Of a stretch of DNA of 42,088 nt, positions 6,159 through 27,836 are shown in pieces. A model generated the notes under the pieces. It had not been told where the DNA came from, did not search any database, and worked only from the letters and a program-made list of their open reading frames with translations. The number at the start of each line of letters is the position of its first letter. Position 1 is the first letter of the stretch. The stretch is from Thiobacillus sp. (GTDB taxonomy: Bacteria > Pseudomonadota > Gammaproteobacteria > Burkholderiales > Thiobacillaceae). The stretch covers positions 1-42,088 of the forward strand of contig JAIBFA010000013.1 of NCBI GenBank assembly GCA_019459325.1, in the 5' to 3' direction. The position numbers were made by a program, and so were the translations under genes.

Positions 6159-6331
6159 GGGGGAGATACACGAAAGTCCGGCGGCTTGTTGCGAACCCTA
6201 CCAATCACTGTTTTAATCAGACGCTCAATGCTTTGGAAGCGCAGCGCCGGCTGTAACGAATGCGTCGTTCAAATGATGCACAATTGACCCAGCGCACTTC
6301 TGTGGTACCCACCGCCAAAAAGGAACTCGAC

Positions 6332-6619
6332 ATGAGCACGAAAGACGAATTTGTCCGCAAAATGCACGCCAAGCTCGATCAATGGAATGCCGAGATCGAT
6401 GCATTGAAAGCAAAATCCGAAGCCGCTGAAGCGGAAGCACGCGCCGAATACCACAAGCAGCTCGAAACCCTGCGCAGCAAGCGTGATGACGCCCGCAGCA
6501 AGCTGAACGAGCTCGAGTCCGCCGGCGAAAGCGCCTGGGAAGACCTGAAGGCCGGCGTCGAACTGGCGTGGGAATCGGTCAGCGAGGCTATGCGTTCCGC
6601 GACGTCCCGATTCAAATAA
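6332..6619 (+). CDS. Small coiled-coil stress-type protein (sll1863-like)
   Basis: A 95-residue, highly charged, almost wholly helical protein with no cysteine. Residues 5-65 form a long heptad-like coiled coil (KLDQWNAEIDALKAKSEAAE is typical), followed by a short amphipathic segment with tryptophans (W69, W80) near the C-terminus. Composition and length resemble the sll1863-type stress-response family, often found with other stress genes. The ATG at 6332 is preferred over the frame start at 6260 because AAAGGA lies 6-10 bases before it. It is followed after 55 bases by the EncFtn-type ferritin gene in the same direction, suggesting a shared transcript and perhaps an oxidative or metal stress role. 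Confidence 0.65.
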   Translation: MSTKDEFVRKMHAKLDQWNAEIDALKAKSEAAEAEARAEYHKQLETLRSKRDDARSKLNELESAGESAWEDLKAGVELAWESVSEAMRSATSRFK

Positions 6620-6674: not shown

Positions 6675-6962
6675 ATGGCAAACGAGGGCTATCACGAGCC
6701 GGTCGAAACACTCAGCACGGAAACCCGCGACATGCATCGGGCGATCATCTCGCTGATGGAAGAACTCGAAGCGGTGGACTGGTACAACCAGCGTGTGGAT
6801 GCCTGCACGGATCCGGAGTTGCGCGCCATCCTCAAGCACAATCGCGACGAGGAGAAGGAGCATGCCGCGATGGTGATGGAGTGGATCCGCCGGCATGACC
6901 CGAGGTTCGACAAGGAACTGCGGGATTATCTGTTCACCGACAAGAAAATCGCTCACGACTGA
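6675..6962 (+). CDS. EncFtn-family ferritin-like protein without encapsulin tail
   Basis: A 95-residue two-helix protein that matches the encapsulated ferritin family closely: YHEPVETLS, then MEELEAVDWYNQRVDACTDP and HNRDEEKEHAAMVMEW. By comparison with the Rhodospirillum rubrum protein the ferroxidase residues are E30, E60 and H63, all present; the outer entry-site acids correspond to E29 and E32. The family assembles as a decamer of two-helix monomers, oxidises Fe(II), and normally stores the iron inside an encapsulin shell. Here the protein stops at FTDKKIAHD, just after the helical domain, without the C-terminal loading peptide, and the next gene is an unrelated convergent one. The ATG has AGGAACC about 8 bases upstream. 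Family call is firm; the physiological partner is unknown. Confidence 0.92.
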   Translation: MANEGYHEPVETLSTETRDMHRAIISLMEELEAVDWYNQRVDACTDPELRAILKHNRDEEKEHAAMVMEWIRRHDPRFDKELRDYLFTDKKIAHD

Positions 6963-7055: not shown

Positions 7056-9899
7056 TCAGCCGGCAGGCAGGCGGTCGATCCAGGCACGCATCTCCAGCGG
7101 ACGCTGGAAATAATAGCCCTGGAAGCGCTCGCAGCCCTGCTGGCGCAGAAAGGCAAGCTGGGCTTCGTTTTCCACGCCTTCCGCCACCACCTCGAAATGC
7201 AGGTGGCGCGCCATCGAGAGGATGGTTTCGACCAGGGCGACGTCGTTGGGATCGTGCGGAATGTCCTGCACGAAACTCTTGTCGATCTTGAGTTCGAACA
7301 GCGGCAGGCGCTTCAGATAGGCCAGCGACGAATAGCCGGTGCCGAAATCGTCGATGGCGAAGCGCAGCCCGAGCGTCGCCAGCTCGGTCATGCGCGCCAC
7401 CGCCTCGGAGGCGTGTTCGACCAGCAGGCTCTCGGTTATTTCCAGCGTGAGATAGGTCGGATCCGCACCGGTGACGGCGAGGATCTCCTTGATCCGCTGA
7501 ACGAAGTCGGCCTGGTGAAACTGCCGTGGACTGACGTTGACGGCAATGCGCAGGCCGCGGCCCTCGGCGTCGAGGCGGGCGATGAGCATGCAGGCTTCGC
7601 GCAGCACCCACTCCCCCAACGGCACGATGAGCCCGGATTCCTCCGCCAGCGGGATGAAACTGGCCGGCATCACCAGGCCCCGCTGCGGATGGCGCCAGCG
7701 TACCAGGGCCTCGGCCCCGATCACCTGTCCCTCCGCATTCACCTGCGATTGCAGATGCAGTTCGAAGCTGCGATCGCGCACCGCTTCGCGCAATTCTCGA
7801 TCGAGCGCGTAGCGCTCGGCGATCGCCTCCTGCATGGTGGGCTCGAAATAGGCGAGCGCATTGCGTCCGCGTTCCTTGGCCCGATACATGGCGGTGTCGG
7901 CCTCGCGCATGAGGTCGTCGACGCTTTCCGCGTCCTTGGGGAACAGGGTGATGCCGATGCTGGCGCCGGTGATGTACTCCTGGCCGTCGAGGGTGACCGG
8001 GGTTTCCAGCGCACTGCGAATCTTCTCCGCGACCGCCATGACCAGGGAGCCGGCATCCTCCAGGCTGGCTGCCAGATCGGGCAGCAGAATGACGAACTCG
8101 TCGCCGCCCAGCCGTGCCACCGTATCGCCCTGGCGCAGGTAGTATTCCAGCCGCCGCGCCACTTCGCGCAGGACGGCATCGCCCATCGCATGGCCATGCA
8201 CATCGTTGATGCGCTTGAACTGGTCGAGGTCGACGAACATCACGGCGCCGCAGCGCCGGTTGCGGCGCGCGGCCGCCAAGGTCTGGGCCAGCCGGTCGAT
8301 GAACAGAACGCGATTGGGCAGGCCGGTCAGCGCGTCATGGTAGGCCAGACGCTCGATTTCGGCCTCGGCATGTTTGGCTGCGGTGACGTCCATGCAATGC
8401 CCGACATAGCCGAGGAACTGGCCTTGGGTGTCAAAGCGCGGGCTGCCCTGGTCGAGGATCCAGCGATAGTCGCCGCAGGCATGGCGCAGGCGGTATTCCA
8501 AGGCAAACGGTTCCCGGCGGTCGAAAGCGGCCTGATAGGTCTCGAGGCAGCGGGCGCGGTCTTCCGGATGCACGCCTTCGACCCAGCCCTCCCCCAGTTC
8601 CTGCTGAAGTGAACGGCCGGTAAAACGCAGCCAGGGTTCGTTGAAGTAATCGCACCCCTTGTCCAGGCCCGCGGACCATATCAGCGCCTGTCCGCTATTG
8701 GCCAGGGTGCGGAAATGCAGTTCGCTGTTGGCCAGGGCCTCGCGCAGCTCATACTCTTGCGAGACGTCGCGAAACACCAATACCACGCCCTGCAACTCGC
8801 CCTGGGCGTTGCGAATCGGCGCGGCACTGTCGGCAATGTGGTAGCGCGCACCGTTGCGCGCCAGCAGGATGGTGTGGTTGGCCAGCCCGACCACGCGTCC
8901 CTCGTGAATGACGCGTGCCACCGGAATCTCCGCCGGTGCGCCGGTGAGGGCATTTTCAATCACGAACACCTCGGCAACAGGACGTCCCCGGGCTTCCGCC
9001 TGGGTCCAGCCGGTAAGGCTTTCCGCCACCGGATTCATGAGGGTGATGCGCTCTTCGGTGTCAGTGGCCAGGAGGGCGTCACCGATGGATTGCAGGGTGA
9101 TGGCAAGCCGCTCTTCGCTGGTGACCAGGTTCGCCCGGGCTTCCTGTACGGCGCGTGCCATGGCATTGAAGCTCTCGGCCAGGGTCGCGATTTCCTGCCC
9201 GCCCTCTTCAGGTACCGCCACGTCGAAATGGCCGCTGCGCAGGGTGTTGGCCGCCTGCGCCAGGCGCCCCAGAGGAGAGGCCACATAGCGATGCAACAGC
9301 CACCCCAGGAGGCCGATCACCAACAACGTGGCGATCAGGTCCGCGGCGCGCGCCTTGAACACGAACTCGCGCATCACCTGACGCTCGCGCGTGAGATCGA
9401 AGCTGACATACACCATGCCCTGCCGCTGGCTGCGCACCTCTTGCGCGCCGGCGGACAACTGGAACGGCTGCATGGCAGCAAGATGGACGCTGTCCGGTGT
9501 GATCGAAAAAAATGCCGGCAGCCGTCCCTGTTTCACCTGTTCGAACCGGCGCAGATCGAAATCCGGCAGTACCTCCGTCACCGGCCTGCCGCGCCAGGCA
9601 TAGCGGTGGGCCGCCAGCACGCGGCCGCTGTCGTCGAGCAGCAACACTGTCGCCGAACGCGGGTCGGTCGCCACCTGGGCCAGATCCGCTTCCACCAGGC
9701 CGCGGCTGGTTTCCCAGCCCTGCTCGGCCATGCGCGCGAGATGGGCGGTATGGCCCAGCAGATCCAGCCTGGACTGCTGGTCGAGTTGCCCCAGCCGCTT
9801 GTGCAGTGCATTCAGCACCGACGCCCCCAGCACCACGAGCAGCAGCAGCGCCAGCCCCAGTGGCAGGGTGACCCGGAAGGGTAAGCGCCGTACCGTCAT
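7056..9899 (-). CDS. Membrane sensor diguanylate cyclase/phosphodiesterase (HAMP-PAS-PAS-GGDEF-EAL)
   Basis: A 947-residue protein: membrane helix 1 (about 9-32), a periplasmic sensor domain (33-184), membrane helix 2 (185-205), HAMP (205-258), two PAS domains (about 262-385 and 392-512), GGDEF (about 513-680) and EAL (695-945). The cyclase site RLGGDEF is intact (596-602) with an RxxD inhibitory site (R589-D592). The phosphodiesterase keeps EAL (730-732), NVSPRQF and DDFGTGYSSL (850-859). Both activities are therefore possible; which dominates cannot be read. Its ATG overlaps the stop of the upstream substrate-binding lipoprotein gene by 4 bases, implying that the two are made together and that the lipoprotein may present a ligand to the periplasmic domain. 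Confidence 0.93.
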   Translation of the reverse strand: MTVRRLPFRVTLPLGLALLLLVVLGASVLNALHKRLGQLDQQSRLDLLGHTAHLARMAEQGWETSRGLVEADLAQVATDPRSATVLLLDDSGRVLAAHRYAWRGRPVTEVLPDFDLRRFEQVKQGRLPAFFSITPDSVHLAAMQPFQLSAGAQEVRSQRQGMVYVSFDLTRERQVMREFVFKARAADLIATLLVIGLLGWLLHRYVASPLGRLAQAANTLRSGHFDVAVPEEGGQEIATLAESFNAMARAVQEARANLVTSEERLAITLQSIGDALLATDTEERITLMNPVAESLTGWTQAEARGRPVAEVFVIENALTGAPAEIPVARVIHEGRVVGLANHTILLARNGARYHIADSAAPIRNAQGELQGVVLVFRDVSQEYELREALANSELHFRTLANSGQALIWSAGLDKGCDYFNEPWLRFTGRSLQQELGEGWVEGVHPEDRARCLETYQAAFDRREPFALEYRLRHACGDYRWILDQGSPRFDTQGQFLGYVGHCMDVTAAKHAEAEIERLAYHDALTGLPNRVLFIDRLAQTLAAARRNRRCGAVMFVDLDQFKRINDVHGHAMGDAVLREVARRLEYYLRQGDTVARLGGDEFVILLPDLAASLEDAGSLVMAVAEKIRSALETPVTLDGQEYITGASIGITLFPKDAESVDDLMREADTAMYRAKERGRNALAYFEPTMQEAIAERYALDRELREAVRDRSFELHLQSQVNAEGQVIGAEALVRWRHPQRGLVMPASFIPLAEESGLIVPLGEWVLREACMLIARLDAEGRGLRIAVNVSPRQFHQADFVQRIKEILAVTGADPTYLTLEITESLLVEHASEAVARMTELATLGLRFAIDDFGTGYSSLAYLKRLPLFELKIDKSFVQDIPHDPNDVALVETILSMARHLHFEVVAEGVENEAQLAFLRQQGCERFQGYYFQRPLEMRAWIDRLPAG

Positions 9900-10858
9900 G
9901 TCGCCTCAGGCAAAAAACGCGGATCGGCCAGCCCTTCCAGTGCGGGAGTCTGCCGCAACAGGGCATTTGAAGTCATGATGCGGGCGACGTTGCCGGCGGC
10001 AGTCGCCAGGGCGGGGCGGGATCCATCCAGCCAGTTGCGGTTGGCCGCAAGGTCCATGAGACGGATGCCCTGAAGTGCCGCGCGCACCTTATGCGGACCG
10101 ACCCCAAGACGTGGGGCCATCCGGCGAAAGGCATCGTCAGGCGAGGTGCGCAGATAATCCAGCGCCTGAAAATGACCCGCCAGCAACTGCCGGAAATTGT
10201 CGGGCGCGTGCGCCAGGGCATCCGCGCGCGCCGCCAGCACGTCGACGATCAGCCCCGGAAAGGACGTGCTGTCAAAAAGGCGTTGGGCGCCCTGGGCCTG
10301 CAACTGAGTGGCGAAAGGCTCCCAGCTGACCAGTACGTCCACCTCGTCCGCGAGATAAGCCCGCAACTGCCGATCGCCCGTGACCCGCACTCTCACCACC
10401 TCGTCTGGCGCAAGGCCGGCCGTTTCGAGCAATTTGGTCAGCATCAGCGCGCCGGATGCAGTCTCTTCGACACCGATGCGTTTTCCCCTGAGATCCTCAA
10501 GCCGCTCGATGCCGGGACGGCTCATGATGACATCCGCCCCCGCGGAGTCATCAAAGACCAGGATGACGCGCACGTCGAGACCGCCTTCGCGGGCAAGCAG
10601 ACATTCGTCGAGGGTAAGCGTGGCCGCTTCCACGTCGCCGGTGGCCAGCGACATGAGATTGGCCGTGTTGGAGGGCATTTCCACCAGCCGCAGGGCGTTG
10701 GGGTCGTACAAGCCCAGATCGCGTGCAAGAAACAGGGGCTCGTAGCCGATCCAGAGGATACCCCCGACGCGCGTCAGGGGCGGCGGCGCGCTGCAGGCGG
10801 CAAGCGCCAGCGGCGCCAGCGCAGTGGCGGCCAGAAAACGGCGACGTCCCTTATCCAT
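9896..10858 (-). CDS. NMT1/ThiY-like ABC-type substrate-binding lipoprotein
   Basis: A 320-residue periplasmic binding protein. The signal region has RRRFLAA (a Tat-like twin-arginine motif) and a lipobox LAAC with C22, so it is probably an exported lipoprotein. The mature part has WIGYEPLFLARDLGLYD, a DVEAATLTLDECLLARE segment and LRGKRIGVEETASGALML, typical of the NrtA/SsuA/TauA/ThiY fold that binds nitrate, sulfonates or thiamine precursors. No ABC permease or ATPase gene lies nearby. Instead the stop codon overlaps the start of a c-di-GMP enzyme gene. The start at 10858 has AAAGGGGAGGG directly upstream; longer readings from 11344 would overlap the divergent gene. It is best viewed as a sensing subunit; ligand unknown. 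Confidence 0.85.
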   Translation of the reverse strand: MDKGRRRFLAATALAPLALAACSAPPPLTRVGGILWIGYEPLFLARDLGLYDPNALRLVEMPSNTANLMSLATGDVEAATLTLDECLLAREGGLDVRVILVFDDSAGADVIMSRPGIERLEDLRGKRIGVEETASGALMLTKLLETAGLAPDEVVRVRVTGDRQLRAYLADEVDVLVSWEPFATQLQAQGAQRLFDSTSFPGLIVDVLAARADALAHAPDNFRQLLAGHFQALDYLRTSPDDAFRRMAPRLGVGPHKVRAALQGIRLMDLAANRNWLDGSRPALATAAGNVARIMTSNALLRQTPALEGLADPRFLPEAT

Positions 10859-24230: not shown

Positions 24231-26438
24231 TCAGAAAGTGAAAGTCACCGCGAACAGTTCGCTGATTTTGCCGGGCGCCTGTGGTTTGCTGACCACGTAG
24301 CCCTGAATTTCATCGCAGCCGTTCTGCCGCAAAAACTCCAACTGCTCGACGCTTTCAACGCCTTCGGCCACGACGCGCAGACTCAGGGAGTGTGCCAGCC
24401 TGATGATGGCATTGACGATTTCCGCATCGTCGCTACCGGTCAACACGTCGTCCACAAAGCTCTTGTCGATTTTCAGTGCATCGATCGGCATGCGCTTCAG
24501 TTGCCCCAGGTTGGAATACCCCGTACCAAAATCATCGATGTAGACGTGCAGCACGCGCTGACGCAGCGCATCGAGGATGCCGAAGGTGCGCGCAGGATTG
24601 TCCATCGCGGCGCTCTCGGTCACTTCCAGCTGCAAATGGGCGGGATCCATTCCGGTTTCCTTCAGGATGGTGTCGACATCTTCAATCAGGCGCGCGTCTG
24701 AGAGCTGACGTGGCGACAGATTGACCGCCACCGGCGGCGGATTGAGTCCCGCATCGCGCCACGCGATCCACTGTTCGCACGCCGTCCGCACCACCCAGCG
24801 CCCCACCGGAACGATGAGGCCGGTTTCCTCCGCCACCGGGATGAACTGTTCGGGGCCGACAATATTGCCCGAGCGGGGAAGCCAGCGAATCAGGGCTTCA
24901 AGCCCCACCACCCGGCCGCTGGCAAGATCGACCTTGGGCTGATACACCAGCGCCAGTTCGTTGCGTTCCAGGGCCTGGCGCAGGCCGTTTTCCAGCGAGA
25001 GTTGCTGCTGTGCGACCGTATTCAATTCGGTGCTGAAATACTCAAAGCCGCTGCGGCGCTGCTTGGCCTGATACATGGCCAGATCGGCCTGGCGCAGCAG
25101 CGTGTTGGCGTCGAGTGCATCGTCGGGATACACGCTGATGCCGATACTGGCGCCGATCGCATACCGCCGCGACCCCAGCTTGAACGATTCGACCAGCGCC
25201 TGCGTCAGCTTGCGCGCAACCCGGCCGGCGGCACGCGAGGCGGGGGGGTGGGTCAGGATGACGGCAAATTCGTCGCCCCCCAGACGGGCGACGAAATCAT
25301 CGGCACGCAACTGCTCGTCCAGCCGGTTGGCCACGACGCGCAACACCTGGTCGCCCACTTCGTGCCCCTGCGAGTCGTTGATGTGCTTGAATCGGTCGAG
25401 ATCGATGAACAGCAGCGAAACCTGGGATTTGTCGCGCTGCGCACGCGCCAGTGCATGACCGAGGAAATCCTGAAAATACGAACGGTTGGGCAGTCCGGTG
25501 AGCGGGTCGTGGTTGGCCAGCATGTCCAGCCGCATTTCGGAATAACGCCGCTCGCTCAGGGCCGCCGACACGAACAGGCCGCCCAGCGCCATCGTCATCA
25601 TGCTGATCTGCAGCGCGAACACGTCGCGCGGCGTGGTCGCGCTCGTGATCCCGCCGTAGGAGACCACCGCCACGCCCATCACGATGATTGCCGCCAGGAA
25701 AATGGCCAGGCTCGCGCCGGTCACCGAAAACCGCAATGCCGCCCACAACACGGCCGGCATCATCACGAAGAGGACGATTTCGGCAGGCCGCAAGGGCTCG
25801 ACGTACTCCATCATCACCAGGGTCAGCGCCATCATGCCGAGCACGAGCACCAGCCCTTCCAGTCGCGCGCCCTTGTTGGTCGGCAGCAAGTCCCAACGCG
25901 ACGCTGTCAGCAACACAGGGGCGATCAGGTACACCCCCAGCAAGTCGCCCAGCCACCACACCCACAAGCCTCGCAGCAGCATATCGGCCGACAGACTGCC
26001 AAAGAAATGCAGACTGAGCACGCCGGTGAGCGCGCTGACCGCACAGCCCAACGGCGCGGCCACCAGCGCAAACTTGGCCACGCTGGACACATAATCGAGG
26101 GTGCGACTGAAAGGCTGCAGATAACGCGGCAGGGTGCCCATGATCCACGCGCCGGCCGCCGCACCGAGGGCAAAGCGGAACGCGTCTTCCAGCGGCAGGT
26201 TGAGGCTGTTGACCGCCAGCGAGCCGAGCAGGACTCCCACCACCCCCGCCGCGCCGAAACGCAGGCTCGCCATGGCGCCGATGCCGGCTGCCAGCCAGAT
26301 GGCGGCGACCACGTGTGCCACATAAGCCGCAAGTTTGAGACTGAGCCAGCCTGCCAGTGCATACGCCAGCGCAGTAAGCCCGGCAATCAGCGCAAAGCGC
26401 CCGACTTCAGCGGGACTAGGCAGCGATAGACGGGCCAA
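24231..26438 (-). CDS. MASE1-GGDEF-EAL c-di-GMP enzyme
   Basis: A 735-residue protein: an N-terminal MASE1-type sensor with about eight membrane helices (15-295), GGDEF (about 300-470) and EAL (480-725). The cyclase site RLGGDEF is at 385-391 with the RxxD inhibitory site (R378-D381). The phosphodiesterase keeps EAL (514-516), NLSPRQLS and IDDFGTGYSN (about 634-643). Both domains look catalytically competent. MASE1 is an integral membrane sensory domain without a known ligand. It is the last gene of a tight three-gene operon behind a FIST sensor gene and an 87-residue protein gene (14-base gap), so its output is likely modulated by them. Confidence 0.93.
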   Translation of the reverse strand: MARLSLPSPAEVGRFALIAGLTALAYALAGWLSLKLAAYVAHVVAAIWLAAGIGAMASLRFGAAGVVGVLLGSLAVNSLNLPLEDAFRFALGAAAGAWIMGTLPRYLQPFSRTLDYVSSVAKFALVAAPLGCAVSALTGVLSLHFFGSLSADMLLRGLWVWWLGDLLGVYLIAPVLLTASRWDLLPTNKGARLEGLVLVLGMMALTLVMMEYVEPLRPAEIVLFVMMPAVLWAALRFSVTGASLAIFLAAIIVMGVAVVSYGGITSATTPRDVFALQISMMTMALGGLFVSAALSERRYSEMRLDMLANHDPLTGLPNRSYFQDFLGHALARAQRDKSQVSLLFIDLDRFKHINDSQGHEVGDQVLRVVANRLDEQLRADDFVARLGGDEFAVILTHPPASRAAGRVARKLTQALVESFKLGSRRYAIGASIGISVYPDDALDANTLLRQADLAMYQAKQRRSGFEYFSTELNTVAQQQLSLENGLRQALERNELALVYQPKVDLASGRVVGLEALIRWLPRSGNIVGPEQFIPVAEETGLIVPVGRWVVRTACEQWIAWRDAGLNPPPVAVNLSPRQLSDARLIEDVDTILKETGMDPAHLQLEVTESAAMDNPARTFGILDALRQRVLHVYIDDFGTGYSNLGQLKRMPIDALKIDKSFVDDVLTGSDDAEIVNAIIRLAHSLSLRVVAEGVESVEQLEFLRQNGCDEIQGYVVSKPQAPGKISELFAVTFTF

Positions 26439-26735: not shown

Positions 26736-27836
26736 TCAGCCGAACAGGGTTAGCACCCCGGTGTAGCCATATAAACGGTTGTGGGAAATTTCGCCGTTGG
26801 CAAAAAACCCCACCAGGGGAAAATCTCCGAGGACATCGCGAATCAGTCCCAGTTCCCGATTCGGCGCGCCGAACATGTGCTGGCCGCGCCCCAGGCAGGA
26901 ATAATACACGCCGCCCCGGATCGGCGCGTTCATTTGCGCGCCGATGGCGCTGAGCATCCGCAGCAGATCCTCTTCGGCGGTTTGCTGGTCACGGCGGCAG
27001 AACAGCAGTTCATCCCCCGGCTCGACCGTCTCGCCGACTGCCACCAGATGGTTCTGGGGATCGACGCCCAGAATATTGCGCACCAGATAATCGCCGGTAT
27101 CCGATCCGCGTACCGGAAGGCCGACAAAAATATAGCCTGCCGCGCGCCGCAGGTCGCGCGCCAGCACCTCGCCGATTTCCTCCTTCATCACGTCGAGTGC
27201 CGGACGGTGATCGAGGCTGCCGATGACGTTCTTGTTGGCGGTGGTGATGCGGTGGCGCGGACCCAGCGGCGAAATGCCCTGCGTCAGCCGGGTGGCCAGC
27301 TTGACCCGCTCGCTGAACAGCACGCCGGACAGCCCGCCGCTCACCACCCCATCACTGATCTGGGCAGTTTCGCCGCGCGAACTCGACAAGCCCCCGACGA
27401 CGAACCCGCTCGACACGTGCGCGCCAAGGGCTTCGATCAGCTCCTGGATGCGCGTGTTGGCCGGGTCGCCATGGACGATGGCGAAATAGGCATCCGACGG
27501 CTGGCCCTCGATGTCCTGCGGCGTGCGCATCACCGGCAGCATACTGAAGTCGGCTGCTGCAAACTCGCCGAGCATTACGGCCATGGCGGGTTCTTCCAGA
27601 TATTCCGCACCGGTCGCGCACACCCCGACGCCCAGGCTGCCTGTCCAGTGCGGCACGCCGGTCGCACTCTTGAAAAAAGCCAGAATCGCGTCGAGCTCGC
27701 CCGCGAAGGCATCCGACACGTACAGAAACCCCAGTGTCGCCGCGGAGGGAATCGCGCCCAACTGATCCATGCAGGCCTGCGCAGCCCGGGTCCAGTCGGC
27801 GTGGGCGGCGTGGGCAAACTTGAAAGGGGTACTCAT
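26736..27836 (-). CDS. FIST-domain sensory protein (NosP-like candidate)
   Basis: A 366-residue soluble protein made of FIST N (about 20-220) and FIST C (about 225-350). Recognisable pieces are the FKFAHAAHADW start, SSGFVVGGLSSSRG, GGLSGVLFS, PIRGGVYYSCLGRGQHMFG and GFFANGEISHNRLYGYTGVL. FIST is a known ligand-binding signalling fold; one subgroup, NosP, binds haem and senses nitric oxide and is often encoded beside c-di-GMP or kinase genes. Whether this protein binds haem cannot be read, though several His residues (H9, H12) are present. It heads the operon with the 87-residue protein and MASE1-GGDEF-EAL. It likely feeds a signal into c-di-GMP turnover. Confidence 0.88.
   Translation of the reverse strand: MSTPFKFAHAAHADWTRAAQACMDQLGAIPSAATLGFLYVSDAFAGELDAILAFFKSATGVPHWTGSLGVGVCATGAEYLEEPAMAVMLGEFAAADFSMLPVMRTPQDIEGQPSDAYFAIVHGDPANTRIQELIEALGAHVSSGFVVGGLSSSRGETAQISDGVVSGGLSGVLFSERVKLATRLTQGISPLGPRHRITTANKNVIGSLDHRPALDVMKEEIGEVLARDLRRAAGYIFVGLPVRGSDTGDYLVRNILGVDPQNHLVAVGETVEPGDELLFCRRDQQTAEEDLLRMLSAIGAQMNAPIRGGVYYSCLGRGQHMFGAPNRELGLIRDVLGDFPLVGFFANGEISHNRLYGYTGVLTLFG

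Follow-up and report, generated by a model that had tools for sequence, protein, structure and literature searches.

An NMT1-fold lipoprotein encoded with a GGDEF-EAL enzyme in Thiobacillus, a probable two-gene receptor

The subject of this analysis is a gene pair on a contig of Thiobacillus sp. (assembly GCA_019459325.1, contig JAIBFA010000013.1, positions 1 to 42,088), the whole 42,088 nucleotides of which are called the window here: a substrate-binding protein (SBP) of the NMT1 family, and a membrane enzyme with GGDEF and EAL domains. We conclude that the two genes very probably encode one receptor, in which the SBP drives the enzyme much as NspS does in other bacteria, here on an NMT1 fold. 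The SBP carries a lipobox, the enzyme has a periplasmic domain in front of its cytoplasmic output, the pairing is conserved among relatives, the sensor-coupled SBPs are nearly separate from those of transporters, and the output has been swapped repeatedly. The export route, the lipidation itself, the docking, the direction of the effect and the ligand enter our scheme as predictions. The SBP would be exported, lipid-anchored and kept in the periplasm, where it would close on a small molecule and dock on the PDC domain of its partner; the change would be relayed through HAMP and PAS domains to GGDEF and EAL, shifting the balance between synthesis and breakdown of cyclic di-GMP (c-di-GMP). Such a receptor would belong to a widespread modular family in which similar lipoproteins work with GGDEF-EAL, GGDEF or histidine-kinase partners.

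The gene pair and its products

In Pfam, the SBP scored 67.7 bits with NMT1 (PF09084, cut-off 20.5) and 51.3 bits with NMT1_2 (cut-off 24.7), and both the score above the curated cut-off and the NMT1 fold place it in the NMT1 family. The top NCBIfam match, SsuA_fam (TIGR01728), reached 97.7 bits and stays under the cut-off of 163.5 for that family. PotD-type families were absent from the Pfam and NCBIfam matches at E 0.001, and the protein is not of the NspS type. The N-terminus as translated, MDKGRRRFLAATALAPLALAACSAPP, contains the twin-arginine-like stretch RRRFL, which we take to be a motif resembling that of twin-arginine translocation (Tat), followed by LAAC, which we take to be a lipobox; read in this way, the SBP is a lipoprotein with a signal peptide and a lipobox cysteine. 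An AlphaFold2 model (mean predicted local distance difference test score, pLDDT, of 91; alignment of 25 sequences) predicts a complete substrate-binding-protein fold. The nearest solved structure is TauA of Escherichia coli (6ssy), with a template modelling (TM) score of 0.79 on the query and 0.84 on the target at 19% identity, followed by SsuA, with DszB, Thi5 and PqqT ranking lower.

The enzyme has hydrophobic segments at about residues 5-28 and 184-206, which flank some 150 residues. For a model of the N-terminal 249 residues, built from 18 sequences (pLDDT 83), the Foldseek matches were WalK (its single-PDC sensor) and, in part of their structures, DctB, DcuS, CitA, PctD and TlpA, and because of the matches to WalK, DctB, DcuS and CitA we consider the periplasmic part a predicted PDC/Cache-like domain. 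An RxxD I-site, the GGDEF and EAL motifs and further EAL motifs were found by pattern (Table 1).

Among 20 open reading frames (ORFs) of the window, Pfam recognised none as an ATPase or permease of the ATP-binding cassette (ABC) type, and home-made profiles for these two components, built from two and three sequences, had no match among the window ORFs. Within the window the SBP gene therefore lacks the adjoining permease and ATPase genes of an ABC importer SBP; encoded together with a membrane GGDEF/EAL protein that has a periplasmic domain, it is, at the gene level, of the c-di-GMP-receptor kind. Among relatives, 52 of the 79 scored SBP genes coupled to a sensor and 5 of the 23 coupled to ABC genes end in [AGT]TGA, which does no more than permit an overlap (L039, L077, L078 and near-copies were left aside, and 2 of 81 sensor-coupled rows were unscored). 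An earlier sequence-only reading of this DNA had described an NMT1-type SBP with a Tat-like signal and a lipobox, a four-base overlap with a HAMP-PAS-GGDEF-EAL gene, a periplasmic domain of 150 residues and no permease or ATPase nearby; all of this agrees with our results, save that Pfam finds two PAS domains where one had been counted.

Table 1. Features of the gene pair, in positions of the window
Feature	Positions	Strand	Basis
NMT1-fold substrate-binding lipoprotein P0001, 320 aa	9896..10858	-	Pfam, NCBIfam, AlphaFold2 model
RRRFL, Tat-like motif, SBP residues 5-9	10832..10846	-	reading of the translation
Lipobox cysteine codon, Cys22 (LAAC, residues 19-22)	10793..10795	-	translation; conservation of the aligned column
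ATGA, SBP stop overlapping enzyme start by 4 bases	9896..9899	-	sequence
Membrane GGDEF-EAL receptor enzyme P0002, 947 aa	7056..9899	-	Pfam; motif patterns
Periplasmic domain, about residues 32-182, predicted single PDC/Cache-like fold	9354..9806	-	pLDDT 83 model, Foldseek; approximate boundaries
HAMP, residues 201-252	9144..9299	-	Pfam PF00672, 51.9 bits
PAS domain 1, residues 268-379	8763..9098	-	Pfam PF00989
PAS domain 2, residues 418-500	8400..8648	-	Pfam PF08447
GGDEF, residues 519-680, with RxxD I-site	7860..8345	-	Pfam, 170.7 bits; motif pattern
EAL, residues 701-934	7098..7799	-	Pfam, 247.3 bits; motif pattern

Conservation of the pairing and separation from transport proteins

Three sources supplied relatives of the SBP. 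Of 117 genomes belonging to the same family, 64 had a match; a scan of GTDB contigs gave 25 loci; and matches at 1e-30 were present in 135 of 398 genomes of the phylum, a number that takes in transport proteins. The surroundings of chosen matches were fetched and partners were labelled with profiles made from Pfam-defined segments. The closest matches came mostly from Thiobacillus, and metagenome-assembled genomes of this genus are the nearest named relatives. From L036-L094 and L125-L164 we drew a set of 94 non-redundant loci, setting aside L083 and L084, which have no SBP match, and the near-copies L044, L071 and L154; the earlier loci and L095-L124 are short stretches around search matches. 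A membrane sensor adjoins the SBP gene in 77 of the 94 loci, ABC genes in 12 and neither in five. Direct labelling accounts for 73 of the 77 and inspection for the other four, namely L050, L152 and L153, where the sensor gene is split (in L050 in frame), and L052, whose partner is a PhnD-kinase immediately upstream of the SBP gene. The five loci with neither comprise L055, where the contig ends 303 bases past the SBP gene, and L082 (G000:C7, in the same genome as the window), L089, L093 and L094, members of an SBP lineage associated with Guanidine-I riboswitches and without ABC genes labelled directly after them. A Guanidine-I riboswitch precedes the SBP in L082, L089 and L093; ABC matches lie 2.5-4.5 kb from the SBP in L082, L089 and L094, and in L093 the SBP is followed by isochorismatase-family and, by eye, EamA-like genes.

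With the profiles fixed beforehand, the pairing was looked for in a further set that had not been used to build them, i.e. 399 genomes of the order with 32 matches at 1e-70, 26 of them in genomes with a copy previously unexamined. A sensor partner was present in 22 of these 26 loci, and 23 of the 26 SBPs have a lipobox as read by eye, 22 of them next to a sensor. In L190 and L203 the partner is cut by the contig end, leaving only the PhnD or HAMP part visible, and in three other loci (L200, L202 and L210) an in-frame split divides it. The counts in the two sets led us to reject the idea of chance neighbours. The pairing recurs in Thiobacillus, in other proteobacteria and, with a kinase, in one planctomycete. 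Here again the sequence-only reading held up, since the pairing recurs and in the close family we saw neither a dedicated permease/ATPase pair nor a gene order that is not conserved, the two outcomes that it had named as contrary to it. Its parallel with NspS-MbaA, drawn for a different SBP family, is likewise supported at its core (77/94 and 22/26 loci) but was too narrow, as kinases and partners with a PhnD domain occur as well.

Two further observations concern the wider occurrence of these genes. In one Thiobacillus genome (L019, L039) a stop breaks the SBP gene, and the adjoining sensor gene also lies in two frames. In addition, 67 plasmid records, many of them from Klebsiella, Enterobacter and Escherichia, carry a distant relative of the SBP at less than 60% identity (about 25% in the enterobacterial rows listed), annotated as an ABC substrate-binding protein.

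Pfam analysis of 18 proteins representing the partner types gave mostly HAMP-PAS-GGDEF-EAL, HAMP-PAS-GGDEF and HAMP-(PAS)-HisKA-HATPase architectures, the last with or without a receiver domain. A second type of partner has a whole PhnD-like periplasmic domain (PF12974, 104-168 bits in six proteins) in front of similar outputs, so that two binding-protein folds meet in one putative receptor; it occurs in L048, L049, L052, L053, L070, L073-L075, L125, L127, L128, L145, L153, L156, L190, L191 and L193-L195. In L052 the opposite strand carries, next to the SBP and its PhnD-histidine kinase, a molybdopterin oxidoreductase gene that the pair might regulate. On a quick tree of the SBPs, made without three fragments of fewer than 240 residues, the kind of output needs at least 13 changes (11 if only kinase and c-di-GMP outputs are distinguished) and the type of sensor, PhnD versus other, needs one. 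As outputs change often and the sensor type once, the simplest reading is that the lipoprotein acts on the periplasmic side and that outputs are exchanged behind the membrane. A fusion of NMT1 with GGDEF-EAL in the same genome as the window (L084) was dropped as a candidate because it matches NMT1 only weakly and in part (23.2 bits) and the N-terminus looks by eye like another type of binding protein. That gene (4978-7269 of L084, plus strand), with its GGDEF and EAL motifs, would be a one-gene counterpart of the pair.

The sensor-coupled SBPs form a branch of their own with few exceptions. When rooted with TauA and SsuA of E. coli, and without eight long-branch rows (L161, L163, L155, L162, L159, L164, L158, L058), a tree separated 68 rows of the sensor group (support 86/97) from 16 transport or orphan rows (93/79). 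In a wider tree with 19 more loci and without L188, 79 of 83 sensor-coupled rows fall into one group (Shimodaira-Hasegawa-like approximate likelihood ratio test, SH-aLRT, 80), with two changes needed. L055, the partner of which is off the contig, was counted with the sensor group in both trees, in the lipobox column and in the tallies of binding residues. The family-profile score does not separate the two kinds cleanly, since the 12 ABC-coupled SBPs score up to 231 bits and two kinase-coupled ones score 218-221.

The lipobox divides the two kinds in a similar way. At the aligned column, a count that rests on the alignment rather than on a pattern search, 68 of the 76 rows of the sensor group (the window included) have cysteine, while the four commonest letters among the 12 ABC-coupled rows, covering ten of them, are not cysteine. 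There are exceptions on both sides, i.e. a stretch resembling a lipobox occurs in L057, an ABC protein from a cyanobacterium, and L127, L141, L175 and L184, among other sensor-coupled SBPs, have an N-terminal hydrophobic stretch without a cysteine. Gram-negative SBPs are described as diffusible in PMC11113362, and a lipid anchor would therefore fit a receptor subunit. Taken as a whole, this branch of SBPs seems, from its sequences, to have left transport and to have specialised as a receptor subunit.

Possible ligands and alternative readings

In TauA, as described in an excerpt of PMC6906117, Gln30 together with backbone groups holds the sulfonate of taurine, and Glu106, Thr132 and Asp205 hold its amine; Asp205 is missing from SsuA, and a Glu106 mutant shows no measurable binding. 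With the TauA numbering matched to our alignment by hand, Asp109 of the SBP (79 of 79 rows) aligns with Glu106 and Asp206 (76 of 79) with Asp205, and the Gln30 column holds Trp36, mostly Trp throughout the sensor group. Because all compared ABC lineages share both Asp109 and Asp206, the two acids indicate the ligand class of the whole branch rather than that of the sensor group alone. Among transport or orphan cousin loci, 7 of the 12 scanned have a Guanidine-I riboswitch, one just upstream of each SBP frame, and five have none; the genome of the window carries two such riboswitches. Ten neighbours picked from five cousin loci belong to creatininase, amidase, AtzH-like, isochorismatase, glutamine-synthetase, glutamine-amidotransferase and GMC oxidoreductase families, which suggests that cousin-locus neighbours mostly point to nitrogen-rich compounds, as far as these five loci go. 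The sulfonate, nitrate or thiamine-like ligand of the sequence-only reading is not supported by these data, given the retained amine-binding acids, the Trp at the Gln30 column and the guanidine, ureide or amine-like contexts of some cousins. Our best guess, which we regard as an even call, is that the ligand would be a nitrogenous cation (an amine, guanidine or a urea-like compound) and not a sulfonate or nitrate.

Several results weigh against the picture of a dedicated receptor for a cation of this sort. Twenty further loci with borderline scores (161-220 bits) are mixed, with 7 sensor-coupled, 12 ABC-coupled and one with neither. In the further set, what follows the lipoprotein gene of L208 is, by eye, an EamA-like transporter gene and not a sensor gene, and the SBPs of L212-L214 have neither a lipobox nor a labelled partner, be it sensor or ABC; additional SBP genes lie close by in L213 and L214, and L212 lies near flavocytochrome-like and cytochrome-like genes (by eye). 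The four sensor-coupled SBPs outside the main group of the wider tree are all coupled to kinases and sit in an unresolved fork. Across 21 GGDEF-EAL pairs, distances between SBPs correlate no better with those of the sensor part (0.86) than with those of the EAL domain (0.88), and the partial correlation with the SBP is lower for the sensor (0.24) than for EAL (0.45). As for guanidine, there is no guanidine riboswitch in the window (no Rfam match) or at the 43 coupled loci scanned, and among the 117 family genomes the pair and the riboswitch are not associated (6 of 26 genomes with the pair vs 14 of 91 without; one-sided p 0.26), a count that disregards short fragments in three genomes (G026, G096 and G105) and in which one of the 20 riboswitch genomes, G082, lies under the gathering score.

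A different division of labour is possible if somewhat unlikely, namely that the PDC domain senses a ligand of its own and the SBP provides a second, antagonistic or accessory input, making the receptor an integrator of two small molecules. Direct ligand binding is common among PDC/Cache domains, and in one clade the partner has the full PhnD-type binding domain beside the lipoprotein; against this, our analysis gave no sign that the PDC domain encoded in the window has a ligand site, and that domain is divergent among relatives (14-79% identity over the aligned N-terminal part).

A narrower proposal is that the SBP still binds what its riboswitch-controlled transport cousins bind and serves as a sensor of free guanidine. 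The riboswitches upstream of 7 of the 12 cousin SBP frames speak for it, as do the residues W36, G38, T82, S105, G107, D109, E131 and D206, which are common to the sensor group and six ABC SBPs of the guanidine lineage wherever these are aligned. Y39, D84 and E180, however, are common to the sensor group and other ABC lineages and not to the guanidine ABC proteins, and a second guanidine lineage has Ala instead of Glu at 131. The gene of the SBP is not under a guanidine riboswitch, as those of the guanidine transport group are. Furthermore, a first rooted tree had the guanidine-containing transport group as sister of the sensor group, but wider sampling did not keep this placement and left several ABC lineages in an unresolved fork, so that other ABC lineages, with no riboswitch where scanned, are equally near. 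This fork and the lack of association among the family genomes led us not to adopt guanidine as the sole ligand, and we consider a guanidine receptor quite improbable. Among the matches listed in open-licence literature on guanidine transport, none described a guanidine sensor of this kind.

Finally, an orphan transport SBP that feeds an ABC permease from another part of the genome, and that precedes the enzyme merely because the two are co-regulated, would have precedent in cousins at 24-29% identity that are coupled to ABC genes in the same genome and in relatives, and in SBPs that serve both transport and signalling (PMC9602780, in excerpt), but is highly improbable given that sensor-coupled SBPs group apart from ABC-coupled ones save for four rows, mostly have the lipobox that the ABC cousins do not, and retain a sensor as partner even though the type of output varies. 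An ordinary ABC transport protein was rejected on similar grounds, i.e. the lack of transporter genes found in the window, the separate group in the tree and the lipobox.

Known systems and significance

Receptors in which an SBP drives a GGDEF-EAL enzyme are a known kind, since NspS-MbaA and ScrB-ScrC precede the pair described here. The balance of c-di-GMP synthesis and breakdown is set by NspS binding, according to excerpts of PMC8967002 and PMC9993111. These describe NspS-MbaA of Vibrio cholerae and Sinorhizobium meliloti as a periplasmic SBP with an inner-membrane GGDEF-EAL enzyme, an arrangement that is predicted from the genes here as well. NspS is a homologue of PotD, whereas the Thiobacillus SBP has an NMT1 fold. 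The Thiobacillus pair further differs from NspS-MbaA in its lipobox, in its two PAS domains and in that some of its relatives have histidine kinases as output. ScrB-ScrC of Vibrio parahaemolyticus likewise combines a periplasmic binding protein and a dual-function c-di-GMP enzyme in one operon (PMC10269520, in excerpt), but that operon also has the signal maker ScrA, and Pfam recognised no such gene among those flanking the Thiobacillus pair. Two genes of the opposite (plus) strand lie past the point where the enzyme gene ends, namely an EncFtn-like encapsulated-ferritin gene (6675-6962, 153.5 bits) and a stress gene of the sll1863 family (6260-6619). The window has a second GGDEF-EAL protein, with a MASE1 sensor (24231-26438, minus strand), adjoining a FIST-domain gene (26736-27836, minus strand).

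TauA and SsuA share their fold with the Thiobacillus SBP, in which the amine-binding acids of TauA are conserved or, for Glu, replaced by Asp; unlike them it has a lipobox, Trp at the Gln30 column and no permease or ATPase found nearby. TorT-TorS and LuxP-LuxQ are examples of histidine kinases activated by SBPs. Many kinases of that kind are encoded beside the SBP gene, according to the excerpt of PMC11113362, where the SBPs are of other families and are called diffusible; those of the Thiobacillus type mostly have a lipobox. SBPs of 13 families have been found to act on receptors (PMC9602780, in excerpt). We found no description of a pair of an NMT1 SBP and a GGDEF protein among the matches listed in open-licence literature. 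What appears to be new, and is supported in outline, is the use of an NMT1 protein, apparently lipid-anchored, as receptor subunit in a widespread family whose outputs can be exchanged.

To our knowledge, few c-di-GMP enzymes have known external ligands. The family described here offers many receptor pairs in which a separable, purifiable SBP should carry the ligand site, making ligands accessible to binding assays, and its natural swaps of output are ready comparisons of one input driving an enzyme or a kinase. It would also add NMT1 proteins, and the apparent lipid anchoring of a Gram-negative SBP, to what is known of SBP-driven signalling. More tentatively, and in a form that we think rather unlikely in full, a branch of transport proteins would have turned into a lipid-anchored receptor subunit for a nitrogen-rich cation, e.g. 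guanidine, and this single ligand-reading part would have been joined to c-di-GMP enzymes, to cyclases and to kinases in two phyla or more. In that case, these bacteria would have an extracellular sense for nitrogen cations, perhaps for guanidine, parallel to the cytoplasmic guanidine riboswitches and controlling c-di-GMP in Thiobacillus.

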